A program made the position numbers and the translations under genes. 43,334 bases of DNA from Desulfobacterales bacterium (lineage in GTDB: Bacteria > Desulfobacterota > Desulfobacteria > Desulfobacterales > SpSt-501), in contig JAUQXK010000016.1 in NCBI GenBank assembly GCA_030834695.1, positions 1-43,334 of the forward strand. Direction: 5' to 3'. Positions 24,018-38,556 of this stretch are shown here, piece after piece (the first letter of the stretch is position 1; the number at the start of each line of letters is the position of its first letter). The notes beneath the pieces were generated by a model. It was not told where the DNA came from, did no database searches, and was given only the letters and a program-made list of their open reading frames with translations.

Positions 24018-24746
24018 TCAAAACGAAAATCCTCTCCGCTTGCGGTAGATCCCTTCCAGTCGGGCCAACTGCTGGCCCATGTTGTCCAGGTGTCGTCGCA
24101 TGGCTTGGGCGGCGGCAGGACCGTCATGATCCAGAATGGCGCGCAGGATCTCGGCATGTTCCTTCGGCCGGTGGATCACTTTCTTGACCGGCTTGACCTC
24201 CAGGATCACTTCGCCCGTCAGCCGAAAAAGCGCGCTGGCGGTGGCCTGCAGCAGTCGGTTCCCGCTCAGTTCGGCCAGGAGGTAATGAAACATCAAGCGG
24301 TTGGAAACCACCTCCGCATGCGAATCGCTGTCTTCCTGTTCGGCGTCGAGGGCCTCCTGCAAACGCCGGGCGCCCTGGTCTTCGATGCGCACGGCGGCGA
24401 TTCGAGCGATTTCGCACTCGATTAAAAGGCGGGCCTGGACCAGCTCCGCCACCGACACCCGGTTGTAGAGGAAGAGATCCAGGAAGGCGCTGTTGAGGTG
24501 GTCCAGGGACAGATCGGTCACATAGGCGCCGCCGGTGGGGCCCTGCAGAATTTTGACCAGACCCTTGATTTCAAGCTCCCGGACCGCTTCGCGCACCACC
24601 ACCCGGCTGACCTGGAACTGCTCGGTCAGCTCCCGTTCGGTGGGCAGGCGTTCGCCGGGCTTGAATCGGCCGGAGAGGATCGCCGCCTTGAGCTGGCTGA
24701 CGATTTCGACCGCGATGCGGTTCTGCTTGACGGGCATGAAGACCAT
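24018..24746 (-). CDS. GntR family transcriptional regulator, FCD (FadR) subfamily
   Basis: 242 residues. The winged HTH occupies about 8-75 (QNRIAVEIVSQLKAAILSGRF, PGERLPTERELTEQFQVSRVVVREAVRELEIKGLV), with the GntR signature PTERELxxxxxVSRxxVREAV. The FCD ligand domain occupies about 95-235, with the metal-ligand-type positions in LLIECEIARIAA and FHYLLAELSGN. FCD regulators sense organic acids and usually repress neighbouring transport and catabolic genes. It is divergent from the tctC-tctB-tctA operon, which it most likely controls through the palindrome at 24831-24844. No strong ribosome binding site precedes the ATG; a second in-frame ATG lies at 24737. Confidence 0.92.
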   Translation of the reverse strand: MVFMPVKQNRIAVEIVSQLKAAILSGRFKPGERLPTERELTEQFQVSRVVVREAVRELEIKGLVKILQGPTGGAYVTDLSLDHLNSAFLDLFLYNRVSVAELVQARLLIECEIARIAAVRIEDQGARRLQEALDAEQEDSDSHAEVVSNRLMFHYLLAELSGNRLLQATASALFRLTGEVILEVKPVKKVIHRPKEHAEILRAILDHDGPAAAQAMRRHLDNMGQQLARLEGIYRKRRGFSF

Positions 24747-24890: not shown

Positions 24891-25853
24891 ATGCGTAGAT
24901 GCTGCGTGGGGGTGCTGGTGGCAATGATGGTCGTCCTTTGCGCGGCGGGTATGCCCGCCGCTCAGGAAATCAAAGGCCCCATCAAGATCGTCGTGCCGTA
25001 CCCGGCGGGCGGCGGCTCGGACGTGGTGGCCCGGCTCATCGCGGACAAACTGAAGGATTCCCTCGGCCAGACGGTGATCGTGGAAAACAAGCCCGGCGCC
25101 GGCGGCCGCATCGGTACGGAATACGCCAAGGGCCAGCCGGCGGACGGCGCCACGATGCTGCTGGTGAACCCGGCCCTGTTCGTCGTGGCGCCGGTGGTTT
25201 TCTCCAAGCTGGCCTATGATCCGGACGCCGACTTCGCACCGGTGTCTCTCATCCAGATCTACCAGTTCTGCGCCTCGGTGCCGCCCGTTTCGCCGATCAA
25301 GGACGTGAAGGGCCTGATCGAATGGATCAAGAAAAATCCGAACCAGGCCAACTACGGATCCCCGGCCGCCGGCAGCCTGCCGCATTTTTTCGGCCTCATG
25401 ATCGGCAAGGCGGCGGGAGTTGAAATGGTGCATTCCTCCTACAACGGGTCGGGCCCGCTGGTGACCGCATTGATCGGCAACCAGATCCCCATCGGCGTCG
25501 ATGCCTATGATGCCCAGTCGGCCTACCACCCGGACAAGATCCGCATTCTGGCCACGGCCGGGACCTCCCGGAAGCAGCCGGACATTCCCACCTTCAAAGA
25601 GGCCGGGTTCCCGGAGATTGAAGGGGTGGGCTGGAACGCCCTCGTCGTGCCGGCCAAGACCCCCAAACCCGTCATCGACAAGCTGAGCGCGGCCGTCGTC
25701 AAGGCGGTGCGGTCGCCGGATGTCGTCGAGAAAATCAAGGGCATGGGCAGCGATCCGGCCGGCACCACGCCGGAGGAATGCAGCGCCGTTTTCAAGAAAG
25801 ACCGTGAGCGCTGGGTGCCGATCATCAAGGCGTCCGGGTTCAAAGCCGAATAA
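24891..25853 (+). CDS. tctC: Tripartite tricarboxylate transporter (TTT) solute-binding protein TctC
   Basis: 320 residues. The signal peptide (VGVLVAMMVVLCAAGMPAA) ends about residue 23. The mature domain begins GPIKIVVPYPAGGGSDVVARL, the defining TctC/Bug segment, then VENKPGAGGRIGTEYAK and, near 295, a normal family C-terminus. It is a periplasmic binding protein for carboxylates or other organic acids. AAAGGAGG lies 7 bases before the ATG at 24891. The open frame reads further upstream, but only this start gives a signal peptide. It heads an operon with tctB and tctA. Confidence 0.95.
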   Translation: MRRCCVGVLVAMMVVLCAAGMPAAQEIKGPIKIVVPYPAGGGSDVVARLIADKLKDSLGQTVIVENKPGAGGRIGTEYAKGQPADGATMLLVNPALFVVAPVVFSKLAYDPDADFAPVSLIQIYQFCASVPPVSPIKDVKGLIEWIKKNPNQANYGSPAAGSLPHFFGLMIGKAAGVEMVHSSYNGSGPLVTALIGNQIPIGVDAYDAQSAYHPDKIRILATAGTSRKQPDIPTFKEAGFPEIEGVGWNALVVPAKTPKPVIDKLSAAVVKAVRSPDVVEKIKGMGSDPAGTTPEECSAVFKKDRERWVPIIKASGFKAE

Positions 25854-25982: not shown

Positions 25983-26450
25983 ATGCGCATCCGGCATCCG
26001 AAGGATTTTCTGACCGGTGTGATGTTCGTTTTTTTCGGTGCGGCGGCCATGGCCTTGTCATCCGGCCTGACGATCGGCGGCGCTGCGAAGATGGGACCGG
26101 GGTATTTCCCGCTCGTGCTCGGCGGGTTCATGGTCGTGCTCGGTAGCGTCATTCTGCTGAGAGGGATCGCGGGGGCCCAGGGATCCCCCGGGTGGCCGAT
26201 CCTGCAGCTCAAGCCCGTGGCGATCATCCTCGTTGCGGTGGTTCTTTTCAGCCAGATCCTGAAGCCCCTGGGCCTGCTGCTGTCGACCGCCGTCCTCGTC
26301 GTTCTCGCCAGCCGGGCCAGCCATGAGTTTCGTTGGAAGGAAGCGCTCCTGAATGCCGCCGCGCTGACCGCCATCGTGCTGGTGGTGTTCGTCTACTTTC
26401 TCGATTTTCAAATGCCGGTGTGGCCGTCTTTCCTTTCCGGCCGCCTCTAA
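25983..26450 (+). CDS. tctB: TTT small membrane subunit TctB
   Basis: 155 residues, four hydrophobic helices, starting MRIRHPKDFLTGVMFVFFGAAAMALS. GPGYFPLVLGGFMVVLGSVIL (near 40-60) is the TctB signature. It forms the membrane complex with TctA. It begins 129 bases after tctC with AAGGGG upstream and ends at the edge of a palindromic repeat that separates it from tctA. Confidence 0.93.
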   Translation: MRIRHPKDFLTGVMFVFFGAAAMALSSGLTIGGAAKMGPGYFPLVLGGFMVVLGSVILLRGIAGAQGSPGWPILQLKPVAIILVAVVLFSQILKPLGLLLSTAVLVVLASRASHEFRWKEALLNAAALTAIVLVVFVYFLDFQMPVWPSFLSGRL

Positions 26451-26618: not shown

Positions 26619-28133
26619 ATGGAACTGCTGTCCAATCTGGCTCTCGGATTCCAGACCGCCGTTACCCCCATGAACCTTCTTTACTGCCTGGTCGGAGCCC
26701 TGATCGGCACCCTCATCGGGGTTCTGCCGGGCATCGGTCCGGTTCAGACCATCGCCATTCTTTTGCCCACCACTTTCGCCCTGCCGCCGGTCTCGGCGCT
26801 GATCATGCTGGCGGGCATCTATTACGGCGCCCAGTACGGCGGGTCGACGACGTCCATCCTGGTGAACGTGCCAGGCGAGGCCTCCTCCGTGGTGACCTGC
26901 CTCGATGGGCACCAGATGGCGCGCCAGGGGCGGGCCGGTGCGGCGCTGACCATCTCGGCCCTGGGCTCGTTCGCGGCCGGCTCGTTCGCCACCCTGGTCC
27001 TGGCCGTTCTGGCGGTGCCGCTGTCCGAACTGGCGTTCCAGTTCGGACCGGCGGAGTACTTCTCGCTCATGGTCTTCGGCCTGATCGGGTCGGTCGTGCT
27101 GGCCTCCGGGTCCATGCTCAAGGCGGTCGGCATGATCGTGCTGGGGCTGCTCCTGGGGATGATCGGCACCGATGTCACCAGCGGCGCGCACCGCTTCACC
27201 TTCGGCATTCCCGAGCTGGCCGACGGCGTCGGGTTCGTATCCCTGGCCATGGGGCTGTTCGGTATCTGCGACATCATCAACAGTCTCGAAAAGCGCGAGA
27301 CGCGCGACATCCTGAAAAGCAAGCTTACCGGGCTGTGGTTGAAAAAGGAGGACCTTCGCATGGCGGCGCCGGCCGTGCTGCGCGGAACCCTGTGCGGTTC
27401 GCTTTTGGGGATTCTGCCGGGCGGCGGGGCCATCATTTCCTCGTTTACGGCCTACATGATCGAGAAGAAGTGCGCGCGCGACCCGGAACGCTTCGGCCAG
27501 GGCGATATTCGCGGGGTGGCGGCCCCCGAATCGGCCAACAACGCCGCGGCCCAGACATCGTTCGTGCCGCTGCTCACGCTCGGCATCCCGCCCAACGTCA
27601 TCCTGGCGATGATGGCCGGCGCCATGATGATCCACGGCATCCAGCCGGGCCCGCGGGTCATCACGAGCAACCCGGCGCTTTTCTGGGGCGTCATCGTTTC
27701 CATGTGGCTCGGCAACGTCATCCTCGTGGTGCTGAACCTGCCGCTGGTGGGGATCTGGGTGCGGCTGCTCTCGGTCCCCTACCGCCTGCTGTATCCCGCG
27801 ATCCTGGTGTTCTGCTGCATCGGGCTCTACAGCGTAAACAACAACACGTTCGACATCGGGCTGACGGCCCTGTGCGGATTGCTCGGGTACGTGTTCCACA
27901 AGCTCGAATGCGAACCGGCCCCGCTCATTCTGGGCTTTGTCCTGGGCCCCATGCTGGAGGAAAACCTGCGGCGGGGCATGCTGCTTTCGCGCGGAGATCC
28001 GTCCGTGTTTTTTACGCGTCCCCTGTCGCTGGTCTTTCTCGTCCTGGCGGCGGGCATGCTGATCGCGGTGGCTCTGCCGGCCATTCGCCGCGGCCGGGAA
28101 AGGGCCTTCAAAGAAGACTATACTAACGTTTAG
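26619..28133 (+). CDS. tctA: TTT large membrane subunit TctA
   Basis: 504 residues, about 12 helices, full length. The start MELLSNLALGFQTAVTP is followed by the family motifs GTLIGVLPGIGPVQTIAIL (near 33-51) and YGAQYGGSTTSILVNVPGE (near 68-86). A second copy, LGILPGGGAIISSFTAYMIEKK, lies near 265-287. These two half-repeats form the transport core. The substrate is delivered by TctC. Only 13 bases separate it from the sulfotransferase-like gene, with which it shares a transcript. Confidence 0.95.
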   Translation: MELLSNLALGFQTAVTPMNLLYCLVGALIGTLIGVLPGIGPVQTIAILLPTTFALPPVSALIMLAGIYYGAQYGGSTTSILVNVPGEASSVVTCLDGHQMARQGRAGAALTISALGSFAAGSFATLVLAVLAVPLSELAFQFGPAEYFSLMVFGLIGSVVLASGSMLKAVGMIVLGLLLGMIGTDVTSGAHRFTFGIPELADGVGFVSLAMGLFGICDIINSLEKRETRDILKSKLTGLWLKKEDLRMAAPAVLRGTLCGSLLGILPGGGAIISSFTAYMIEKKCARDPERFGQGDIRGVAAPESANNAAAQTSFVPLLTLGIPPNVILAMMAGAMMIHGIQPGPRVITSNPALFWGVIVSMWLGNVILVVLNLPLVGIWVRLLSVPYRLLYPAILVFCCIGLYSVNNNTFDIGLTALCGLLGYVFHKLECEPAPLILGFVLGPMLEENLRRGMLLSRGDPSVFFTRPLSLVFLVLAAGMLIAVALPAIRRGRERAFKEDYTNV

Positions 28134-28146
28134 GAGGCATGACCCA

Positions 28147-29589
28147 ATGACTTATCCCAGTATCTTTCCCACCGGAGCAACCCTCTACGACCCCAGCCGG
28201 TGCTGGAACGGCTATACCGTGTTTCAGGCCAAGGAGGTGGGGGCGCTGCTGATCGACATGAACGGCGGCGAGGTCCAGCTGTGGAAGGAGCTGCACGGGA
28301 TGCCCAACCGGCTCCTGCCGGGCGGTCATCTGATCGGCAGCACCGGTGAGCGCAGCACGGCCTTCGGCAGCCAGGACGGGATCGACCTGGTCCAGGTGGA
28401 CTGGGACGGCAACGTGGTCTGGCGCTTCAACCAGTATGAATTCATCGAGGACCCGGGCGAAGCGCCGCAGTGGATGGCCCGCCAGCATCACGACTACCAG
28501 CGGGAAGGCAATCCGGTGGGCTACTACGCCCCGGGCCTGGAACCGCTGGCGGACCGGGGCAACACCATGATCCTCGCGCACAAGAACGTCAGGAATCCCG
28601 CCATCTGCGACAAGCCGCTCCTGGACGACAGCATCATCGAAGTCAACTGGGAGGGTGAAGTCATCTGGGAATGGGTGTGCAGCGATCATTTCGACGAGCT
28701 GGGCTTGCGCGAGGACGCCAGGAACCTCCTGTTCCGCAATCCCAACTGGCTGAAATCGGGGGGCGGCGTCGGCGACTGGATGCACATCAACTCCATGTCG
28801 CTGCTGGGACCCAACCGCTGGTTCGACGCCGGGGACAACCGCTTCCACCCGGACAACATCATCTGGTGCGCGCGGGAGTCCAACATAACGGCCATCGTCG
28901 ACAAGCAGACCGGCCGGATCGTCTGGCGCCTCGGACCCAACTACGACGAGACCCCCGAGCTGCGGCGGCTGGGTTGGATCATCGGCCAGCACCACGCCCA
29001 CATGATCCCCCGCGGGCTCCCCGGCGAGGGCCACATCCTGGTTTTCGACAACGGCGGCTGGGCCGGCTACGGGTCGCCCAATCCCGGGTCGCCCACGGGC
29101 TTCCGCAACGCGCTGCGCGATTATTCGCGGGTGCTCGAAATCGATCCGGTCTCGTTGCAGGTCGTCTGGCAGTACACGCCGGTCGAGGCCGGGCTGGCGT
29201 TCCCCGTGGATGCGAACCGCTTCTACAGCCCGTTCATCAGCTCCGCCCAACGCCTGCCGAACGGCAACACGCTGATCACCGAGGGCTCGGGCGGCCGCAT
29301 CATCGAGGTCACCGCCGGCCATGAGACGGTCTGGGAGTACATCAGCCCCTATTGGGGCCGGATGTTGAAGATCAACATGATCTATCGCGCCTACCGGGTG
29401 CCCTACGAATGGGTGCCGCAAATCGAAAAGCCGGCCGAGCAGGCGATCGAACGCATCGACGTGACGCGCTTTCGGTTGCCGGGAGCCTCGCCGCGGGGGG
29501 CGCGGCGTACGGTGGACGTCGCCGGTGTATTGCCGTACCGGCCGGATGCGGCTCTTTGCGTGCGCACCGACGTGGCCGAAAGCCCTTGA
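28147..29589 (+). CDS. Arylsulfate sulfotransferase-like beta-propeller protein
   Basis: 480 residues of the ASST family, which moves sulfo groups between phenolic esters without PAPS. Blade repeats with the pattern G-x-V-V-W recur: GNVVWRFNQYEF (near 88), GEVIWEWVCSDHF (near 170), GRIVWRLGPNYDE (near 256), LQVVWQYTP (near 338) and HETVWEYISPYW (near 392). Candidate active-site histidines sit in DWMHINS (His213) and QHHAHMIP (282-285). No signal peptide is visible (MTYPSIFPTGATLYDP), whereas the characterised E. coli enzyme is periplasmic, so it may act in the cytoplasm. AGGAGG lies 9 bases before the ATG. It follows tctA by 13 bases and precedes the Grx/radical-SAM-like gene by 11. Other propeller enzymes are possible alternatives. 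Confidence 0.82.
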   Translation: MTYPSIFPTGATLYDPSRCWNGYTVFQAKEVGALLIDMNGGEVQLWKELHGMPNRLLPGGHLIGSTGERSTAFGSQDGIDLVQVDWDGNVVWRFNQYEFIEDPGEAPQWMARQHHDYQREGNPVGYYAPGLEPLADRGNTMILAHKNVRNPAICDKPLLDDSIIEVNWEGEVIWEWVCSDHFDELGLREDARNLLFRNPNWLKSGGGVGDWMHINSMSLLGPNRWFDAGDNRFHPDNIIWCARESNITAIVDKQTGRIVWRLGPNYDETPELRRLGWIIGQHHAHMIPRGLPGEGHILVFDNGGWAGYGSPNPGSPTGFRNALRDYSRVLEIDPVSLQVVWQYTPVEAGLAFPVDANRFYSPFISSAQRLPNGNTLITEGSGGRIIEVTAGHETVWEYISPYWGRMLKINMIYRAYRVPYEWVPQIEKPAEQAIERIDVTRFRLPGASPRGARRTVDVAGVLPYRPDAALCVRTDVAESP

Positions 29590-29600
29590 GGAAATGCCGA

Positions 29601-30443
29601 ATGAGCCTGATTCTCTTTACGGCGACCGGCTGCGCGCGATGCCAGATCGCCAAGAAGTTCATGCGCGAGAAGGACCTGGGCTTCGCCGAGCACGATGCGG
29701 TCGGGGAGGGGAAAGAGCTTTTCGGGAAATTCTACCGGGCGCACCGCGCGGCCATCGTTCGAGGAGCCGAAGGCATCGAATTTCCGGTCCTGGCGGACGG
29801 TCCCGAAGTCCGGCAGGGTGTCGCCGCGGTCATCGCCTGGCTGCAGGCCGGGGCTCGGCTCGACGGGTTCATCGGCCGCAGCGACGTTTCCAGGGGCTGG
29901 GTCGGGGGCCTGCATGTTTCGAAAGGGGATCCTGCCGCGATGGAGGACCTGGTCGGCGTCCTCGGCTTTTTGAAGCGAAACGGTTTGAAGCTGCAGTTGG
30001 ACACCGACGGCCGGAACGCGGCGGTTCTGGAGCACCTCCTGGCGCAAGGCCTGGGAGACCGGGTGGTCATGGAACTGAAAGGCCCCAGAGCGCTATACGC
30101 GGCGATGACGGGAGGGTCGATCGAACCGGAAGAGGTCCATCGCAGCATGGTGCGGGTGGCTGGATTTCCCGAGCACCGGTTTGAGACCACGGTTGCGCCG
30201 GTTGCGCGGACGGCAGAGGACTCGGAGGGCATCCGTTACCTGACCCCGGATGAGGTCGCCGAAACCGCGTTGTGGCTGAAAACGGCCACGGGCAGCCATC
30301 GCCAGCCCTACGTCCTGCATGTTTTTGACCCTCAGGCCGACCCCGACGACCGCTTCCGTTCGGTTGAAATGCTCACGCCGGCCGTTCTGTTACGCCACCG
30401 CAGCGCCGCCCGCAGGCACCAGGTCCTGACCGAGATCGAATGA
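29601..30443 (+). CDS. Glutaredoxin-like domain fused to a radical-SAM-like domain lacking the iron-sulfur motif
   Basis: 280 residues. Residues 1-85 read as a glutaredoxin/thioredoxin-like domain: ILFTATGCARCQIAKKF with CxxC at 11-14, then FPVLADG. Residues 86-260 follow the second part of NrdG/PflA-type radical-SAM activases. VSKGDP (106-111) stands where SGGEP is usual, LGFLKRNGLKLQLDTDGRNA (121-140) matches the kLDTNG strand, VVMELKGPRALY (155-166) matches VAMDIKAP, and RFETTVAP (193-200) matches EFRTTVVP. The CxxxCxxC cluster segment that should precede VSKGDP is absent, its place taken by the CxxC domain. So it cannot be a normal radical-SAM enzyme. GAGGA precedes the ATG at 29601. It ends the tct-ASST operon. 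Function unknown. Confidence 0.75.
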   Translation: MSLILFTATGCARCQIAKKFMREKDLGFAEHDAVGEGKELFGKFYRAHRAAIVRGAEGIEFPVLADGPEVRQGVAAVIAWLQAGARLDGFIGRSDVSRGWVGGLHVSKGDPAAMEDLVGVLGFLKRNGLKLQLDTDGRNAAVLEHLLAQGLGDRVVMELKGPRALYAAMTGGSIEPEEVHRSMVRVAGFPEHRFETTVAPVARTAEDSEGIRYLTPDEVAETALWLKTATGSHRQPYVLHVFDPQADPDDRFRSVEMLTPAVLLRHRSAARRHQVLTEIE

Positions 30444-30623: not shown

Positions 30624-33311
30624 ATGGAAACCGAAGGCAAGCAGACTGAAACGGCGTTGCGCGAGAGCGAGGAAAGGTTTCGTCACATCGTAGAATCCTT
30701 GCCCGATGCCATTCTGGTCCGCCGCGCTGGAGTCATTGTTTACGCCAATTCGGCGGCGCTCAAGCTCTTCCGGGCGAGCGATGCAGATGAGCTGGTCGGG
30801 AAGAATTATTTGGACCTGGTTCATCCCGATGACCGGCCTGAATCGATCGAGCGGATCCGCAAGGGGCTCAGCGAAAATTGGATTGCCCCGCTGCGCCAAC
30901 ACCGCGTGTCGACGCTGGACGGCCAGGTGGTGCAGGTGGAGTCCTGGGGCGTGCCCGTCCAGTATCAGGGTCAGACCCAACTCTTCGGAATCCTCCGCGA
31001 CATTACAGATCGCAAGCGGACCGAACAGTTGCTGATGCGTTCCGAACACGAAAAGGAAATGATCCTGAACTCCATTTTCGAAAATTTCGTCTACTTTGAT
31101 CCGGAACTTCGAATCCAGTGGGCGAATCAAGCGGCTGCGCAGTCCGCCGGCAAGACGCCGGCGGATTTGCTCGGCCGTCATTGCTACGAAATCTGGCATC
31201 AGAGCAACGAGCCCTGCCAGAATTGCCCGGTCGTCAAAGCCCGAGAAACCGGATTGCCGCAGCAGTTGGAAACGACGACCCCGGACGGGCGTCACTGGAT
31301 CGGACGGGGCTATCCGGTTTTCGACGATCATGGAAAACTGGTCGGCATGACGGAGCTGGCCCAGGACATCACCCAGCGAAAGAAGGCTGAGGACGCACTC
31401 CGGATCAGCGAGGAGAAATACCGCTTGCTGATCGAAAACCAGGCGGACATGGTGGTCAAGCTCGATCTTCAGGGCAACTTCCTTTTCGTGAGTCCCAGCT
31501 ATTGCGAGGCCTTCGGTGAATCCGAGCAAGCGCTGCTCGGCAGGCCCTTTTTGCCGATGGTCTACGAGGAGGATCGGGAAGCGACGGCCGAGGCCATGAA
31601 AGCGCTCTACCATCACCCCCATGCCTGCTATCTCGAGCAACGGCTCATGACGCGGTCCGGACTGCGGTGGATCGGTTGGGCCGATAAGGCGCTGTTGGAC
31701 GAAGATGGGCAATTGGCGGCCATCATCGGCGTGGGACGCGATATCACCGAGCGGAAGCAGGCGGCCGAGGCGTTGAGGGAAAGCGAGGCGCGCTTCCGCA
31801 CCGCATTTGAAAACACCGCAGTGGGGATGGCACTGATCGCTTTGGACGGAGCGGCCATCGAAGTCAACACGGCCGTGGCGCACATGCTGGGTTACACGAA
31901 GCAGGAGCTTTTTGGCGGAACGATACGGGACGTCATGCACCCGGATGATTTTGAAGCCCACCGGCTTCTTTTCAAGAGGCTTTTGGAGGGGGAGCTGCCG
32001 TACGGAGACAGTGATCGTCGTTTGATTTGCAAGAACGGGGTCATCATCAATACCCAGATCTGGTCGACCATTCAACGGGACGAGCACGGGAAGCCGCTCT
32101 ATATGGTCGCGATGGTGCGCGACGTGAGCGCACAGGTCCGTGCCCAAAAAGAAAAAGATCAGCTGCAATCCCAGCTGCTGCAAGCCCAGAAAATGGAGGC
32201 GATTGGAGCCCTGGCGGGAGGAATTGCCCACGATTTCAACAATATTTTATCTGCGATTATCGGTTTTACGGAGCTGTCCACGTTAAGCGAAGGCGCACCG
32301 GTTGAATATCTACAGGAGGCATTGAGGGCGGCCCATCGCGCCCGGGATCTGGTGAAGCAGATTCTTTCCTTCAGCCGGCAGGCGGATGAAGAGCGAACTC
32401 CGGTTGATGTCGGCATGATCGTACGGGAGGTTGTCAAATTTCTGCGGGCCAGCATCCCCGCCACCATCGACCTCAACTACCGAATCGACGATCCGGCGGG
32501 GGCTGTTTTCGGGAATTCGGTTGAGCTGCACCAAATCCTGATGAACCTGGCAACCAACGCCGTTCACGCCATCGGCGAGAATCCGGGGAGCATCGACATC
32601 GAGGTGCAGGGCGCGACCCTGACGGATGAAGACAAGGACGGCTGTTTCGACCTGGATACGGGCTCGTATGTGCGTCTTGCGGTCAGGGACACCGGACGAG
32701 GAATTCCGCTGGAAATGCAGGAGCGGATTTTTGATCCCTATTTCACGACGAAAGAAAAGGGGGTCGGCACCGGCCTCGGCCTGGCGGTGGTCAGCGGAAT
32801 TGTAAAGAAATGCAACGGAGCCGTCCGGGTCGAAAGCGCGCCCGGGAAAGGGGCTGTCTTCAAAGTTTGGCTGCCGAAGGTCAAATTGACATCCGGTCGG
32901 CCGGAAAAGGAAAAAGTGCCGCCCTGCGGCGGTTCCGAGAGCATTCTGTTCGTCGACGATGAAAGGATGCTGGTTGACATCGGGGAGAAGATTCTGACGC
33001 GGCTGGGGTACGATGTCGTTACGAGAACCAGCCCGATTGAAGCGCTCGAGCTGTTCAAGGCCAACCCGAAGAGGTTTGACATCGTCATCACGGATCAAAC
33101 CATGCCGGGAATGAGGGGCGACGTATTGGCGGTCGAGTTGATGAGAATCAATCCGGAGATTCCCGTCATCCTTTGCACGGGCTACAGTCAGCAGCTTGAC
33201 CAAGTCAAAGCCCAAAAAAAAGGGATCAAAGCGCTGGTCATGAAACCGCTCCTAATCGACGAGATCGATCGCGCGATCCGCAGCGTGCTAAAATCCAAAA
33301 AAGAGAATTGA
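30624..33311 (+). CDS. PAS-rich hybrid sensor histidine kinase with C-terminal receiver
   Basis: 895 residues, no membrane segment, so a cytoplasmic sensor. Four PAS/PAC units lie at about 13-133, 138-255, 262-383 and 386-510. The second contains HQSNEPCQNCPVVKA with a CxxC that could bind metal or react to redox. HisKA is at about 525-590 with His536 (GGIAHDFNNIL). The HATPase is at about 630-750 with N-box LMNLATNAVHA and G-boxes DTGRGIP and GVGTGLGLA. The receiver is at about 770-890 with Asp824 (VITDQTMPG). HDFNN-type kinases with a terminal receiver pass phosphate onward or feed it back. It lies 180 bases after the Grx-fusion gene; I see no clear terminator or promoter in that gap. Confidence 0.95.
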   Translation: METEGKQTETALRESEERFRHIVESLPDAILVRRAGVIVYANSAALKLFRASDADELVGKNYLDLVHPDDRPESIERIRKGLSENWIAPLRQHRVSTLDGQVVQVESWGVPVQYQGQTQLFGILRDITDRKRTEQLLMRSEHEKEMILNSIFENFVYFDPELRIQWANQAAAQSAGKTPADLLGRHCYEIWHQSNEPCQNCPVVKARETGLPQQLETTTPDGRHWIGRGYPVFDDHGKLVGMTELAQDITQRKKAEDALRISEEKYRLLIENQADMVVKLDLQGNFLFVSPSYCEAFGESEQALLGRPFLPMVYEEDREATAEAMKALYHHPHACYLEQRLMTRSGLRWIGWADKALLDEDGQLAAIIGVGRDITERKQAAEALRESEARFRTAFENTAVGMALIALDGAAIEVNTAVAHMLGYTKQELFGGTIRDVMHPDDFEAHRLLFKRLLEGELPYGDSDRRLICKNGVIINTQIWSTIQRDEHGKPLYMVAMVRDVSAQVRAQKEKDQLQSQLLQAQKMEAIGALAGGIAHDFNNILSAIIGFTELSTLSEGAPVEYLQEALRAAHRARDLVKQILSFSRQADEERTPVDVGMIVREVVKFLRASIPATIDLNYRIDDPAGAVFGNSVELHQILMNLATNAVHAIGENPGSIDIEVQGATLTDEDKDGCFDLDTGSYVRLAVRDTGRGIPLEMQERIFDPYFTTKEKGVGTGLGLAVVSGIVKKCNGAVRVESAPGKGAVFKVWLPKVKLTSGRPEKEKVPPCGGSESILFVDDERMLVDIGEKILTRLGYDVVTRTSPIEALELFKANPKRFDIVITDQTMPGMRGDVLAVELMRINPEIPVILCTGYSQQLDQVKAQKKGIKALVMKPLLIDEIDRAIRSVLKSKKEN

Positions 33312-33446: not shown

Positions 33447-34229
33447 ATGCCCGTGAAAGATCGGGACCATGTCCAATCGATTGCCAAGTGCTTCACTCTC
33501 CTCGGCCATCTGGCCGCGCCGGATTCGCCTTTCACGCTCGATGACCTCACCCGGAAAACCCGTTACCACAAGACCACCTGCTTCCGGTTTCTGAAGACCA
33601 TGCGTCAGCTCGGGCTGGTCGAGCAGAACATGGACAAGAAGACCTATCACCTGGGTCCCGCGATGGCGGCACTCGGCCTGAAGGCGCTCAAGGGCTTGAA
33701 CCTGCGCCGGGCGGCGTTGCCGGTGATGCAGGCGCTGCGGGATGAGACGGAGGAGACGGTCAATCTTTCCCTGCTCAGCGGAACCGAGATCATCTTCGTC
33801 GAGCGGGTTATGTCGGACTATCTCGTCAACGCGAACATCAACGTGGGCGACCGGTTGCCGGTATACTGCGCCAGCATGGGTAAAGTCATCCTGGCCTTCA
33901 TGCCCGAACCGCACGCTGATGCCATTCTCGGCCAACTGGATTTTAAATCCAGGACCGAGCGCACGATTGTCTCGGCCGCCGCGTTCAAGAAGGAACTCGC
34001 GGAAATCAAAAACCGGGGGTATGCGCTCAATAACGAAGAGCTGGAAAGAGGCCTGCGGGCGGTCGCAGCCCCGATCATCGGTTATACGGGGGAGGCATTT
34101 GCCGCCATCAATATCGCCTGGACGACGGCCCGGCGCCCCTCCCGGCGGACGTTCACCGAATTCGCCGCCAAAGTGGTCCGGGCGGCCGAACAGATTTCAC
34201 TGGCCATGGGGTACATTCGGCAGTCGTAA
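33447..34229 (+). CDS. IclR family transcriptional regulator
   Basis: 260 residues. The N-terminal winged HTH (about 7-60) has SIAKCFTLLGHLAAPDSPFTLDDLTRKTRYHKTTCFRFLKTMRQLGLV and YHLGP. The effector-binding domain (about 80-250) has GTEIIFVERV, INVGDRLPVYCASMGKVILAF (ligand loop) and RGYALNNEELERGLRAVAAPI. These proteins sense carboxylates or aromatics and control adjacent catabolic genes, here most likely the CoA-transferase and TAXI-TRAP genes that follow in the same direction. It ends 63 bases before the CoA-transferase. Confidence 0.94.
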   Translation: MPVKDRDHVQSIAKCFTLLGHLAAPDSPFTLDDLTRKTRYHKTTCFRFLKTMRQLGLVEQNMDKKTYHLGPAMAALGLKALKGLNLRRAALPVMQALRDETEETVNLSLLSGTEIIFVERVMSDYLVNANINVGDRLPVYCASMGKVILAFMPEPHADAILGQLDFKSRTERTIVSAAAFKKELAEIKNRGYALNNEELERGLRAVAAPIIGYTGEAFAAINIAWTTARRPSRRTFTEFAAKVVRAAEQISLAMGYIRQS

Positions 34230-34292
34230 ACTGGGACGGGCCCCCAAAAGATCCCATGGACATGTCATTCCAAACGGTTCGCTGAGGGTTGC

Positions 34293-35498
34293 ATGCACGC
34301 AAACTTGAAAAAAGGCGCTTTGGACGGGATTCGGGTCATCGACATGACCCGCGTATTGGCAGGGCCCTATTGCACGCTGCTGTTGGGCGACATGGGGGCG
34401 GAAATCATCAAAATCGAAGTGCCGGGCCATGGGGACGACACGCGCAAATACCCTCCGTTCATCGGGTCCGAAAGCGCTTATTTCATGAACCTCAACCGAA
34501 ACAAGAAGAGCCTGACGCTGAACCTGAAGGCCGCGGAGGGGAAAGCGGTTTTTCTGGATCTGGTCAAACGCTCCGATGTCCTCATCGAGAATTTCCGGCC
34601 CGGGACCATGGACGACCTGGGGATCGGCTATGCCGCGCTGAAAGCCGTCAACCCCAAGATCATTTACTCCTCGATATCCGGCTTCGGGCATACCGGACCG
34701 TACAAGGATCTGCCCGGATACGACATCATCGGCCAGGCCATGGGGGGCATCATGAGCGTGACCGGCTGGCCGGACAGCCCGCCAACTCGGACCGGCACCG
34801 CGATTGCCGATATCCTGGCGGGACTTTGCGCCGGCATCGGAATCCTGAGCAGTCTCATCGCCGTGCGCAACGGCGGCCCGGGCCAGAAGGTGGACATCGC
34901 GCTGGTCGATTCGGTGGTTTCAGCGATGGAGACGATCATCCAGATCTATCTGGTTGAAAAGCGAATCCCCCAGAGGACCGGCAACCGCTATGAATTCATC
35001 TATCCCTATGACACCTTCAAAGCCAGGGACGGCTGGGTGGTGATCGCCGTCGGCAACAACAAGTTATGGGAAATGTTTTGCGACGCCATCGGCATGCGCC
35101 GCCTTCTGGAAGACCCGACCTACAAAGACAACTACGACCGCGTCAAGGCCCATGCGGCGGTCAAGCGGATCGTGGAGGAGTGGACGGGAACCCGGACCGT
35201 CCGGGAGGTCGTCGATTTCCTTTTGTCCAAGGCCATCCCCTGCGCGCCGCTGTACACGGTCAAAGAGGTGGTCGAGGACCCGCATATCGCCGATGCCCGC
35301 CGCATGATCCGCGAGATCGATCATCCGCTGGCCGGTCGCACCAAAGTCATCGGCTCGCCGATCCATCTTTCGGAAACGCCGGCGGAGGTGCACGCTCCGG
35401 CGCCGCTCCTCGGAGAGCACAGCGTGGACATATTGAAGGGCATCCTGAATTATTCCGAGGAGCGGGTGGCGGCATTGCAAAAGAATCACATCATTTAA
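34293..35498 (+). CDS. Class III (CaiB/BaiF, formyl-CoA type) CoA-transferase
   Basis: 401 residues, full length. The N-terminus is LDGIRVIDMTRVLAGPYCTLLLGDMGAEIIKIE. The nucleophilic Asp is Asp173 in TGTAIADILAGL, at the place of Asp169 of Frc, with FGHTGPY, PGYDIIGQAMGG and GPGQKVDIALVDSV around it. It transfers CoA between organic acids through an Asp-anhydride intermediate. Between an IclR regulator and a TAXI-TRAP importer, it probably activates the imported acid, using acyl-CoA of the pathway as donor. The specific substrate is unknown. Confidence 0.94.
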   Translation: MHANLKKGALDGIRVIDMTRVLAGPYCTLLLGDMGAEIIKIEVPGHGDDTRKYPPFIGSESAYFMNLNRNKKSLTLNLKAAEGKAVFLDLVKRSDVLIENFRPGTMDDLGIGYAALKAVNPKIIYSSISGFGHTGPYKDLPGYDIIGQAMGGIMSVTGWPDSPPTRTGTAIADILAGLCAGIGILSSLIAVRNGGPGQKVDIALVDSVVSAMETIIQIYLVEKRIPQRTGNRYEFIYPYDTFKARDGWVVIAVGNNKLWEMFCDAIGMRRLLEDPTYKDNYDRVKAHAAVKRIVEEWTGTRTVREVVDFLLSKAIPCAPLYTVKEVVEDPHIADARRMIREIDHPLAGRTKVIGSPIHLSETPAEVHAPAPLLGEHSVDILKGILNYSEERVAALQKNHII

Positions 35499-35566
35499 CG
35501 ATGTCCGACTGGAGTGCAGCATGCATAACTGGCCATTCAACCGTGTCGCATGAAAGGAGAAATGTC

Positions 35567-36562
35567 ATGAAGCCTCTCAGGATCGTCGCCGCTGCTTTCG
35601 TCTTCGCATCGATCACGGCCGCCATCGGGCTGCTTCCCGTCGACGGCTGGGCCGCCTCCAAGAAACTGCTGGCCATGGGCTCGACGCAGTCCTCGTCCAG
35701 CCACTACGCGTACTTCGTGGCCGTCGCCAAGGTGATCAACGCCCGTGTGCCGGATGTCAACATCTCGGTGGTGGAAACCGGCGCCTCGGTGGACAACATC
35801 AACCGGATCAAGAAAGGGGATCTGGACCTGGGGATGACGACCATCCACCTCCAATACCAGGCCTACCACGGCCTGGAAGCCTGGAAGGACAAGCCCATCA
35901 AAGACCAGTACGTCATGTGGGTCTACCAGCCGGCGCCGCAGAATTTCGTCGTGCGCGAGGACAGCGGCGTCAAAACGGTTTACGATCTGGCGGGGAAGCC
36001 CTTCAACCCGGGGATCCGGGGGTCGGCCACCGAAAAGACGGTGGAGGCCATCCTGGACGCGCTCGCCGTAACGCCCAACTGGGTGAGGGGCGGGACCGAG
36101 GATGCGATCGCCTCCATCAAGGACAAGCGGGTCGTGGGCTACGTGAAATCCGGAGCCGGGGTCGACAGTCTGGACGCCTCCACGCTGGATCTCGCCACCT
36201 TCACGTCCATCCGCCTGCTGGGCTTCACCGAGGAGGACATCGCCAAGGTCAAGGCGAAGTATCCCTACCTCAGCCCGATCGCCATGCCCAAGGGGATCTA
36301 CAAAGACTCTCCGGCCTACAAGACGTTCGCCATGCTCATCGGCACAGTGGTAAAAAAGGACTTGTCCGAGGACCTGGTCTACCGGATGGTCAAGGCCGCC
36401 TGCGAGGGGTTTGACGAGCAGGTCGCCGCCTATCCCTCCATTAAAGGCGTCAGTCTTCCGCAGCTGACCCTGGAAACCTGCAACGTTCCGCTGCACCCCG
36501 GCGCGATCAAGTATTACAAAGAAATCGGACACAAGATCCCGGAAAACCTGATCCCGAAATGA
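35567..36562 (+). CDS. TAXI family TRAP transporter solute-binding protein
   Basis: 331 residues. The signal peptide (RIVAAAFVFASITAAIGLLPVDGWA) cleaves near residue 28. The TAXI domain follows: LLAMGSTQSSSSHYAYFVAVAKVIN, VVETGASVDNINRIKKGDLDLGM (near 75-100), FNPGIRGSATEKTVEAI and the C-terminal lobe with LHPGAIKYYKEIG. TAXI proteins bind small dicarboxylates or amino acids such as glutamate. AAAGGAG lies 8-12 bases before the ATG at 35567; the earlier in-frame codons belong to overlap with the CoA-transferase. Its stop overlaps the permease start (ATGA). Confidence 0.94.
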   Translation: MKPLRIVAAAFVFASITAAIGLLPVDGWAASKKLLAMGSTQSSSSHYAYFVAVAKVINARVPDVNISVVETGASVDNINRIKKGDLDLGMTTIHLQYQAYHGLEAWKDKPIKDQYVMWVYQPAPQNFVVREDSGVKTVYDLAGKPFNPGIRGSATEKTVEAILDALAVTPNWVRGGTEDAIASIKDKRVVGYVKSGAGVDSLDASTLDLATFTSIRLLGFTEEDIAKVKAKYPYLSPIAMPKGIYKDSPAYKTFAMLIGTVVKKDLSEDLVYRMVKAACEGFDEQVAAYPSIKGVSLPQLTLETCNVPLHPGAIKYYKEIGHKIPENLIPK

Positions 36563-38556
36563 GGAAAGCGGATGCCATGCCTACAGGCGAAACCTCGGTC
36601 GATGTCAACGAGCTGATCCACATCGTTCCCGAAAAAGTGGATGTCAAAGACCCGGACCAGGCGGTGGCCAGAACCCTAAAAGGGCCGTTCTCGGTCCTGG
36701 CAGCGGGTCTGTCCGTTCTATTTGCGATCTTCCAACTATACACCGCCTTTGCCGGGGCCTTCCCGGACCTGATCCAGCGCAGCATCCACATGGGGTTTGC
36801 CATCGTTCTGGCCTTTCTCCTGTATTCCGCTTCCGGCCGATCCCCCAAAGACCGCCCGTCGATGGTGGACGCCCTGGCGATGGCTTCGGGAGCGGTTGTC
36901 TGCATGTATGCCGCCTTCAACTACGACCGCATCATGATGAATCCGGGCATATCCAGCGACTGGGATCTGGCGCTGGGAATCATCGCCGCCGTCATCGTCC
37001 TGGAGATGACCCGCCGGATCCTCAGCTGGATCATGCCGGCCATCGCCGTTCTGACGATCCTCTACGCGTACTTCGGCCAGGCTCTGCCCGATGTCATCGC
37101 CCACCGCGGATTCAGCGTCAGCTACATCCTGGAGACGCTGTACATGTCGACCTCCGGCCTCTGGGGCACCGTGACGGGGGTCTCGGCCACGGTCGTGGCG
37201 GGCTTCCTCATCTTCGGGTCGGTTCTTTACTACACCGGGGGCGGGGAAATTTTCGTCGATCTGGCCAAGGCCCTCGCCGGCCGATCCTACGGCGGACCGG
37301 CCAAGGTCAGCTGCATATCGAGCGCGCTCTTCGGAACCATTTCGGGCAGCGCCGTCGCCAACGTCGTGGTCGACGGGGTCTTCAACATCCCGTTGATGAA
37401 AAAGCTGGGCTACAAGCCGGAATTCGCGGCCGCCGTGGAGGCCACGGCCTCCACCGGCGGCCAGATCATGCCGCCGGTGATGGGGGCGGGAGCCTTCATC
37501 ATGGCGGAACTGATCCACGTGGCCTACCTGAAGATCGCGCTGGCGGCGGTGGTTCCGGCGCTGCTGTATTATCTCGGGGTGGCGGCCTCGATCCATTTCG
37601 AAGCGCGGAAGTCCAACCTGATGCGAATCCCCAAAGCGTTGATCCCCTCCGTGAAAAAGACCCTGCCTAAAGGCGCCCCGCTCTTCATCCCGGTCACGCT
37701 GCTCATCTATCTCCTGCTCGACGGCCGGGACCCGACCAGCTCGGTGTTCTGGGCGACGATGGCCTCGGTGGGGCTGTATTTCGCGACCGTTCGAAGCCGG
37801 GCCGTATTGAAGGAAAGGGCCCGGAACATGGTCGGGGCCATGGAGGCGGGCGGCAAGTCCGTCGTCCTGGTGGCGAGCCTCTGCTGCTGCGCCCAGATCG
37901 TGATCGGCATGGTGAACCTCTCCGGGCTGGGGATCAAGATGTCGGAGCTGGTCATCGGGCTCAGCATGGGGGTTGAATTTTTAGGGCTTTTTTTCACCAT
38001 GATCGTGTGCCTCATCCTCGGCATGGGCCTGCCCACGACGGCGGCCTATGTTTTGGCGGCATCCGTGGCCGGGCCCGCCCTCGTCAAGCTGGGCGTGGTT
38101 CCGATGGCCGCGCACCTGTTCGTGTTTTATTTCGCCATCATTTCCGCCATCACGCCGCCGGTCTGTGCGGCGGTCTATGCGGCCACGGCGATCGCCCGCT
38201 CGAACTGGCTCCAGACCGGCTGGCTGGCCGTCCGCATGGGGCTGGCCGGATTTGTCGCCCCCTTTCTGTTCGTCTACCGCCCGCAGATCCTGCTGATCGG
38301 GTCCCCCATGGACATCCTGTGGAACTGCCTGGTGGCGGGCTTGGGCGTTCTGGCGCTGGCGGGAGTGGCGATCGGCTATTTCGGAGACAAATGCCGGTGG
38401 TATGAGTGGGTGCTGCTGGCCGCCGGGGCGCTGCTGCTCCTCAAGCCCGGCCTGGTCTCGGACCTGGTCGGCATTGCGGTGGTCGGGATCATTTTCGGGC
38501 TGCAGAAGAAAAGGCATGCCGCCGCGGAAGCGGCGACCCAGCCGGCCACCGGATAG
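36559..38556 (+). CDS. TRAP transporter fused permease (4TM DctQ-like + 12TM DctM-like)
   Basis: 665 residues, typical for the TAXI-associated fusion. Residues about 45-190 form the DctQ-like bundle (FSVLAAGLSVLFAIFQLYTAFAG, YASFNYDRI region). Residues about 200-655 form the DctM-like core, with SGSAVANVVVDGVFNIPLMKKLGY (near 255-280), STGGQIMPPVMGAGAFIMAEL (near 295-315), GMGLPTTAAYVLAASVAGPAL (near 490-510) and ITPPVCAAVYAATAIARSNW. It pairs with the TAXI protein upstream (4-base overlap). An alternative start is the ATG at 36577 with GAGGA ten bases upstream. Confidence 0.94.
   Translation: MRKADAMPTGETSVDVNELIHIVPEKVDVKDPDQAVARTLKGPFSVLAAGLSVLFAIFQLYTAFAGAFPDLIQRSIHMGFAIVLAFLLYSASGRSPKDRPSMVDALAMASGAVVCMYAAFNYDRIMMNPGISSDWDLALGIIAAVIVLEMTRRILSWIMPAIAVLTILYAYFGQALPDVIAHRGFSVSYILETLYMSTSGLWGTVTGVSATVVAGFLIFGSVLYYTGGGEIFVDLAKALAGRSYGGPAKVSCISSALFGTISGSAVANVVVDGVFNIPLMKKLGYKPEFAAAVEATASTGGQIMPPVMGAGAFIMAELIHVAYLKIALAAVVPALLYYLGVAASIHFEARKSNLMRIPKALIPSVKKTLPKGAPLFIPVTLLIYLLLDGRDPTSSVFWATMASVGLYFATVRSRAVLKERARNMVGAMEAGGKSVVLVASLCCCAQIVIGMVNLSGLGIKMSELVIGLSMGVEFLGLFFTMIVCLILGMGLPTTAAYVLAASVAGPALVKLGVVPMAAHLFVFYFAIISAITPPVCAAVYAATAIARSNWLQTGWLAVRMGLAGFVAPFLFVYRPQILLIGSPMDILWNCLVAGLGVLALAGVAIGYFGDKCRWYEWVLLAAGALLLLKPGLVSDLVGIAVVGIIFGLQKKRHAAAEAATQPATG

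Follow-up and report, generated by a model that had tools for sequence, protein, structure and literature searches.

The window analysed here is the 43,334-nucleotide contig JAUQXK010000016.1 of a Desulfobacterales bacterium (assembly GCA_030834695.1). It contains a gene for a protein in which a glutaredoxin-type domain with a CxRC motif is fused to a barrel of the radical S-adenosylmethionine (SAM) kind that lacks the CxxxCxxC motif of iron-sulfur (Fe-S) clusters. This fusion gene stands directly behind a gene for an aryl-sulfate sulfotransferase (ASST)-like protein (Table 1). We propose, at about even chances on the sequence evidence, that the fusion protein serves a cytoplasmic ASST with a C-terminal tail cysteine as its specific dithiol partner, and that it would resolve an S-sulfocysteine on this tail with release of sulfite. 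A wider proposal, which we hold tentatively and somewhat short of even, is that the pair belongs to a novel route of organosulfate reduction. In this route a tail-cysteine ASST and a dithiol partner would supply sulfite to dissimilatory (Dsr) or Asr-type sulfite reductases, bypassing ATP sulfurylase and adenosine 5'-phosphosulfate (APS) reductase; in one branch the partner would be a cluster-less activase barrel with a glutaredoxin domain and its peptide grip kept, which in some organisms would be re-reduced by a lipoyl H-protein and the corresponding dehydrogenase.

A glutaredoxin domain in place of the cluster-binding unit

The original prediction had read the protein as a glutaredoxin-type CxxC domain joined to a C-terminal part of the NrdG/PflA activase kind, with the redox domain standing where CxxxCxxC is missing. 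This architecture was confirmed by profile and fold comparisons. No Pfam model scored above its cut-off in a scan of the fusion protein: the N-terminal part, with CARC at residues 11–14, gave 14.9 bits (expectation value E 0.032) with PF00462 against a cut-off of 22.9, and Radical_SAM gave E 0.28. NCBIfam Uxx_star matched the N-terminal part with E 0.004, below its cut-off, and residues 97–213 matched NCBIfam NrdG2 (TIGR02495) with E 3.6e-11, at 42.8 bits against a cut-off of 131.15. A sequence search of the PDB gave weak matches only. Profile-profile comparison (hhalign) of 17 family members with seven NrdG2 proteins gave a probability of 99.6 and E 8e-24 over columns 97–269. Judged from these alignments, the C-terminal two thirds of the fusion protein are homologous to NrdG2 from beta-2 to the end.

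A structure predicted from three family sequences had a good glutaredoxin domain and a C-terminal half that was not confident (mean predicted local distance difference test score, pLDDT, 59.5); glutaredoxins and NrdH-redoxins, corresponding to the N-terminal domain, were among the Foldseek matches listed for it. For a second model the alignment was extended by nine NrdG2 C-terminal fragments from viral contigs, which gave a mean pLDDT of 87.1 and a predicted template modelling score (pTM) of 0.84. Since the added fragments prime the barrel, this model agrees with the profile homology and is no independent discovery. Its residues 98–280 superimposed on the pyruvate formate-lyase (PFL)-activase domain 3can (Z 13.7, root-mean-square deviation (rmsd) 2.6, 156 of 161 residues aligned) and on PFL-activase 3c8f (Z 11.5, rmsd 3.3, 175 aligned), and residues 1–84 on NrdH-redoxin 1h75 (Z 10.6, rmsd 1.9, 72 of 76 aligned). 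Other high structural matches were the radical-SAM proteins NifB, Mmp10 and RlmN and the N-domains of glutathione transferases; the top Foldseek row was biotin synthase, and lipoyl synthases were also listed. In this model residues 98–280 are a predicted partial TIM barrel of the PFL-activase kind minus the beta-1 unit, and the non-barrel fold that would have spoken against the original prediction did not appear.

Compared with NrdG2 and PFL-activase (TIGR02495; 3can, 3c8f), the family thus has the same homologous C-terminal part and the same predicted fold, and it differs in the absence of beta-1, the CxxxCxxC loop and alpha-1, a position taken by the glutaredoxin domain, and in its usual neighbour, a sulfotransferase gene. 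The GGEP-type SAM-binding motif is intact in one of the 27 family copies, which is not the window's. Membership of the radical-SAM superfamily in a functional sense was rejected, as the motif that defines it occurs in none of the 27 copies examined, the window's included. With NrdH-redoxins and glutaredoxins (1h75, PF00462) the N-terminal domain shares a predicted thioredoxin-type fold, a CxxC at the N-terminus of helix 1 and a proline before the next strand; it differs in its CxRC, its invariant K18, R49 and R54, and a sequence that stays below the Pfam and NCBIfam cut-offs.

The fusion protein forms a conserved family

The family comprises 27 copies from 25 genomes of two phyla, with CxRC in 26 copies and CxKC in the remaining one (genome G708). 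Among 58 relatives searched, all seven genomes of the window's genus carry the fusion gene, one of them split over two contigs; in the other 51 genomes of the order the matches, where present, omit the CxRC region. Full-length matches were found in 12 of 395 genomes of the window's phylum, the other listed matches covering the barrel part only, and the seven barrel-only matches examined (L041-L046, L048) all have CxxxCxxC. In the phylum of Moorella, 7 of 299 genomes carry the gene, two of them twice, and the G708 copy is truncated. Neither a pattern scan of viral contigs nor a plasmid search at E 1e-8 gave a relative of the fusion protein.

Invariant positions are concentrated in the redox domain, where they make up 16 of the 88 residues, compared with 8 of the other 192; they include C11, R13, C14, K18, R49, R54 and P62. 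Against the nearest relative, the ratio of non-synonymous to synonymous substitution rates (dN/dS) is 0.20 overall, 0.064 in the redox domain and 0.30 in the rest. We infer that the barrel is under selection as well, looser than that on the redox domain, as would be expected of a part that binds or serves as scaffold and is not catalytic. The earlier suggestion of a repurposed barrel in a redox or binding protein gains support from the matching fold and the absent motif, as a candidate role. A separate NrdG2 with CxxxCxxC is encoded in the window's genome. Going by this conservation, the fusion is a conserved family and not a decayed gene; none of the family copies examined has an intact cluster motif beside which the window's copy would be a degraded one.

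Linkage to an ASST-like gene

Locus counts were taken from profile searches of all reading frames. An ASST-like gene lies on the same contig, at most 10.4 kb away, for 26 of the 27 fusion copies (G110 counted by the positions of search matches and G600 as a contig-end piece) and is directly adjacent in 15; the gene order around the two genes differs between lineages. An ASST of this profile is present in all 12 fusion carriers sampled from the window's phylum, against 25 of 395 genomes overall (hypergeometric 2e-16), and in 6 of 7 carriers of the Moorella-phylum sample, against 16 of 299 overall (6e-8), counts that include kin (seven of one genus, seven of another) and so are not independent trials. 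Across 20 loci the distance matrices of the two proteins correlate with r 0.78, which 0 of 2000 permutations reach; shared descent contributes to this correlation. The exception is G708, where no ASST match was found and the fusion gene matches to residue 206 only; its flanks match one Moorella locus. The frame of this copy (L079, 9324-10187) continues into what looks like a fragment of a major facilitator superfamily transporter.

In the window the fusion gene is the last of the run TctC, TctB, TctA, ASST-like gene and fusion gene, at a gap of 11 bp from the ASST-like gene. The original prediction had placed it at the end of a transporter-sulfotransferase operon and suggested that it may serve that pathway. 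The order was found as described, and the linkage across the family supports such a role.

The ASST-like partner has catalytic residues and a tail cysteine

The ASST-like protein of the window scored 72 bits with Pfam Arylsulfotrans (cut-off 24.2). No match to the APS/3'-phosphoadenosine 5'-phosphosulfate (PAPS) reductase family was found, and at E up to 1 only two ASST Pfam models matched. A PDB sequence search with the protein gave no match; a search with its profile gave weak matches to sulfotransferases of known structure (9kf4, E 3e-9). Alignment to E. coli ASST 3elq was bridged by a larger PF05935 ASST encoded beside an ASST of this kind in G450, and the equivalences of H213, R243 and H282 (Table 1) use residue numbers counted from this alignment. 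According to an excerpt of a review (PMC13426309), His436 of the E. coli enzyme is transiently sulfated and the site consists of His252, His356, Asn358, Arg374 and Thr501. H213, R243 and H282 are kept in 65 of 66 full-length homologues, the remaining one having an unresolved residue at H282. Inspection of the N-terminus showed no export signal, which would place the protein in the cytoplasm.

All 49 full-length core sequences examined, many of them close relatives, carry a cysteine with V, I or L after it in the tail that follows the last propeller motif, and no cysteine is aligned at this position in 17 of 17 distant homologues, core and distant being set by profile scores (at least 698 and at most 607, respectively) that include the tail itself. 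In six of these 17 a cysteine occurs at another place downstream of that motif. In a tree from propeller columns only, 51 core sequences, two of them from plasmids, form one clade with a support of only 0.37. Four plasmid-borne homologues, of seven listed, were examined afterwards and fit the rule: the core ASSTs of Cetobacterium somerae and Paenibacillus cellulositrophicus have the tail cysteine, and the distant ones of Tolypothrix and Methylosinus do not. The count excludes five ASST pieces of fewer than 380 residues (two cut ends of genes counted elsewhere, one contig-end piece of G600 and two of the G679 copy); further ASST copies, for example in G132 and G220, stand outside it, as do the larger PF05935 ASSTs of loci L096 and L103.

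Other ASST genes were seen besides. The larger ASSTs (L096, 9285-11174; L103, 9777-11693) have 629–638 residues without an obvious signal peptide and adjoin genes for a tail-cysteine ASST and a thioredoxin. At L111 (4124-5551, G679) a core-type copy with internal stops is pseudogene-like. Two loci with a tail-cysteine ASST (L065, 5937-7355; L069, 12743-14134) also encode a divergent ASST, which on inspection seems to have a signal peptide, next to a DASS-type transporter and a porin gene, which suggests a periplasmic plus a cytoplasmic step.

Thioredoxins at ASST loci without the fusion gene

Five ASST loci without the fusion gene have a thioredoxin (G693, G450, G602, G691 and Cetobacterium somerae), and in two it is fused to the ASST. 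The G691 ASST ends in a thioredoxin domain at residues 501–601 (E 5.8e-21) and that of C. somerae in one at residues 498–597 (E 3.1e-11). The tail cysteine precedes the thioredoxin domain by about 24 residues in both fusions, and a flavin disulfide reductase gene is located upstream. In G450 and G602 a thioredoxin and a thioredoxin reductase (over the TIGR01292 cut-off) are encoded directly beside the ASST. The G693 run encodes an SsuA-like binding protein, the ASST, an O-acetylhomoserine-sulfhydrylase-like protein, an AsrC-like sulfite reductase and the thioredoxin; the NCBIfam names SsuA, O-acetylhomoserine sulfhydrylase and AsrC are below their cut-offs and the Pfam domains above. No homologue of these thioredoxins was found at E 1e-8 in the stretches around the 27 fusion-gene copies.

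At L114 (1179-1469) of Moorella sulfitireducens the reading frame of a small Uxx-star-like glutaredoxin contains one TGA within the active-site motif (TPTUPTC) and another close to the end; the protein is probably a selenoprotein of the NCBIfam NF041212 type.

Sulfite reductase and lipoyl proteins in the carriers

In the Moorella-phylum sample dsrA was over its cut-off in all seven fusion carriers against 41 of 299 genomes (p 6e-7), and in 11 of 16 ASST carriers (p 2e-7). On the window's side, 16 of 18 fusion carriers have dsrA, a count that stands without a background rate for the phylum; of the two carriers without a full match, G387 shows two half matches, and the completeness of G005 is 85%. 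A 665-residue AprA/fumarate-reductase-like flavoprotein is encoded downstream of the ASST and fusion genes of Moorella sulfitireducens (L071, 12307-14304).

An orphan GcvH (H-protein) is encoded in the cluster of 13 of the 27 fusion copies, seven of them from one genus, and dihydrolipoyl dehydrogenase (Lpd) in 11; as each frame kept its best label only, a disulfide reductase that matches Lpd best counts as Lpd. LipB and LipA are also encoded in one G598 cluster. Every carrier with an orphan GcvH has at least one further GcvH elsewhere, and the lysine of the ESxK motif was kept in the 12 H-protein sequences inspected. Direct sulfo transfer from the ASST to the lipoyl arm was considered too. It was ranked lower once the thioredoxin partners and the tail cysteine had come to light, since 14 of 27 clusters have no orphan lipoyl carrier.

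At L063 (2705-8273; G110:C4:686223-687644) the fusion and ASST genes are separated by a complete gcvT-gcvH-gcvPA-gcvPB-lipA operon. A gcv operon also neighbours ASST genes in L101, and this may hint at a tie of glycine cleavage to the module.

Proposed mechanism

APS/PAPS reductases transfer activated sulfate to a C-terminal tail cysteine, from which thioredoxin releases sulfite. The logic proposed here would be the same, a tail cysteine and a dithiol partner, on an unrelated enzyme: an ASST-type protein with a catalytic histidine, whose donor would be an organic sulfate and not a nucleotide. An organic sulfate ester would be imported by the transporter of the operon, and its sulfuryl group would be taken by His282 of the ASST-like enzyme, as by His436 in E. 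coli ASST. The group would then be passed to the tail cysteine, giving S-sulfocysteine. Attack by Cys11 of the CxRC domain, or by thioredoxin in other organisms, would expel sulfite and leave a disulfide, which could be reduced by dihydrolipoyl H-protein and Lpd where these are co-encoded and otherwise by a housekeeping reductant. The sulfite would go to a Dsr or Asr-type sulfite reductase.

The invariant R13, K18, R49 and R54 would suit an anionic sulfo group. The barrel, without cluster and SAM motif, would keep the peptide grip of the activase and hold the ASST tail before the CxRC motif; PFL-activase has been solved with a bound peptide substrate (3cb8, by its title), so the fusion barrel may hold the tail likewise. 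Lipoate-binding proteins of the sHdr system of sulfur oxidisers are likewise lipoyl carriers in sulfur metabolism, and the direction here would be reductive.

Each domain is known. The combination, with a glutaredoxin replacing the radical-SAM cluster unit, was not found described in the open-access PubMed Central literature, and neither were the pairing with a tail-cysteine ASST and a route from organosulfate to sulfite; such absence is weak evidence.

Several observations weigh against the dithiol-partner proposal, besides the limits given above with the counts (kinship, a tail-inclusive score, low clade support, cysteines elsewhere in distant tails and a missing background rate). The fusion protein is absent from 13 of 25 ASST-carrying genomes in the sample of the window's phylum and from 10 of 16 in that of Moorella, so these ASSTs do not all need it; two of the 13, G285 and G250, have a core-type ASST. 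Most other core ASST loci without the fusion gene have no thioredoxin nearby either. The tail cysteine could be structural or regulatory, and in the larger ASSTs of L096 and L103 a Cys-Val close to the C-terminus was aligned by MAFFT to the tail columns. Five of the 16 Moorella-phylum ASST carriers lack dsrA, and four of these encode an SsuA-like protein next to the ASST, an arrangement that looks assimilatory. Neither GcvH nor Lpd occurs in the clusters of the window's genus, G345, G325, G447 and G600. The H-protein of G110 and G539 sits in a complete gcv operon and so is no proof of a lipoyl link there, and a tie of the module to glycine cleavage is possible.

Alternative explanations

Ordinary sulfuryl transfer, or a sulfatase-like route, would pass the sulfate to a small acceptor or to water, with the fusion protein sensing redox state or acting as a regulator. 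The catalytic residues of ASSTs are present, known ASSTs sulfate phenols and alcohols (excerpts of PMC11576661 and PMC13426309), and the transporters of the clusters are diverse, so the substrates may be too. We consider this explanation rather unlikely: it does not explain why the core ASSTs have a tail cysteine, nor the two thioredoxin fusions and the gene run with sulfite-reductase-like and sulfhydrylase-like proteins.

The CxRC protein could instead be a helper like DsbL that takes no part in turnover: a thiol oxidase, isomerase or chaperone specific to the ASST, in which it would form or protect a disulfide. According to the excerpt of PMC13426309, dsbA is contiguous with astA in several bacteria, and a reference title there names DsbL/DsbI as a dithiol oxidase system specific for a periplasmic ASST of uropathogenic E. 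coli. The likeness extends to a dedicated CxxC protein and the same catalytic residues, and nearly all members of the ASST-like family share a second cysteine, C178. The DsbA/DsbL-type partners of that source are periplasmic and oxidising, whereas here inspection showed a signal peptide in neither protein, the redox neighbours are reductases of the Lpd and thioredoxin reductase type, and the glutaredoxin-type domain is fused to a barrel. L095 and L097 have another residue in place of C178, in contrast to the tail cysteine, which is present throughout the core set. The cytoplasm of an anaerobe is moreover reducing, and a helper of this sort is unlikely.

A role as accessory to lipoate or glycine-cleavage proteins, in which the fusion protein would help to load a lipoyl H-protein, insert its sulfur or re-reduce it and would be tied to the ASST indirectly, could draw on the orphan GcvH genes, on LipA and LipB in the G598 cluster, on the gcv operon with LipA near the G110 copy and on the lipoyl synthases in the Foldseek list. 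It is quite improbable in view of an ASST gene near 26 of 27 copies against an orphan H-protein near 13. Lipoyl synthase requires Fe-S clusters, and the family lacks their CxxxCxxC motif.

A degraded radical-SAM gene without function, which the lost cluster motif and eroded SAM motif might bring to mind, is hardly credible and was rejected on the conservation of 27 copies in two phyla (26 with CxRC, none with CxxxCxxC), the overall dN/dS of 0.20, the lack of internal stops among the listed family matches and the separately encoded NrdG2 with CxxxCxxC.

Genomic context in the window

The features of the operon are collected in Table 1. The sequence cluster of the divergent GntR-type regulator is present at 7 of the 27 compared loci. 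The next gene downstream, on the strand of the fusion gene, encodes a multi-PAS histidine kinase with a C-terminal receiver (30624-33311, by inspection). Positions 33447-38556 further downstream encode an IclR regulator, a CoA-transferase of family III, an NMT1_3 (TAXI-type) binding protein and a DctM transporter, a separate organic-anion uptake locus that adjoins the sulfotransferase operon.

Table 1. Features of the sulfotransferase operon and its products in the window.
Feature	Position	Strand	Basis and remarks
GntR-type regulator, divergent from operon	24018..24746	-	Named by inspection of translation
TctC, solute-binding protein	24891..25853	+	Pfam TctC 5.2e-52; start is methionine of apparent signal peptide
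TctB, small membrane subunit	25983..26450	+	Pfam TctB 1.1e-17
TctA, large membrane subunit, tripartite tricarboxylate-type transporter	26619..28133	+	Pfam TctA 2.6e-160
ASST-like partner gene, 480 aa	28147..29589	+	Pfam Arylsulfotrans 6e-20; catalytic residues kept; signal peptide: none by inspection
His213 codon of ASST-like protein	28783..28785	+	Aligned with E. coli ASST His356
Arg243 codon of ASST-like protein	28873..28875	+	Aligned with E. coli ASST Arg374
His282 codon of ASST-like protein	28990..28992	+	Aligned with E. coli ASST His436 (sulfated residue)
Cys471 codon, C-terminal tail cysteine of core ASST-like group	29557..29559	+	49/49 core, 0/17 distant sequences
Glutaredoxin-NrdG2-like fusion gene, 280 aa	29601..30443	+	Open reading frame bounds exact; profile, profile-profile and fold evidence
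Glutaredoxin-like domain, residues 1-88	29601..29864	+	NrdH-redoxin/glutaredoxin fold (predicted); 16/88 residues invariant (alignment A2)
CARC (CxRC motif), codons 11-14	29631..29642	+	C11, R13 and C14 identical in all 17 family sequences of the alignment
NrdG2-like partial barrel without Fe-S motif, residues 97-280	29889..30440	+	NCBIfam, profile-profile, predicted fold

Biological meaning

If the proposed route is true, anaerobes would respire organic sulfates as ready-made activated sulfate and spare the ATP of sulfate activation. It would open a further way into the sulfur cycle, with sulfide formed from sulfated compounds of plants, algae or hosts, and it would give a physiological role to a group of proteins annotated only as 'aryl-sulfate sulfotransferase'. 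Regardless of the pathway, the family is a plain example of a radical-SAM barrel that selection has kept after loss of the motif that defines its superfamily, with a redox domain replacing the lost piece. Such a cluster-less barrel lets one ask what these barrels do besides radical chemistry.

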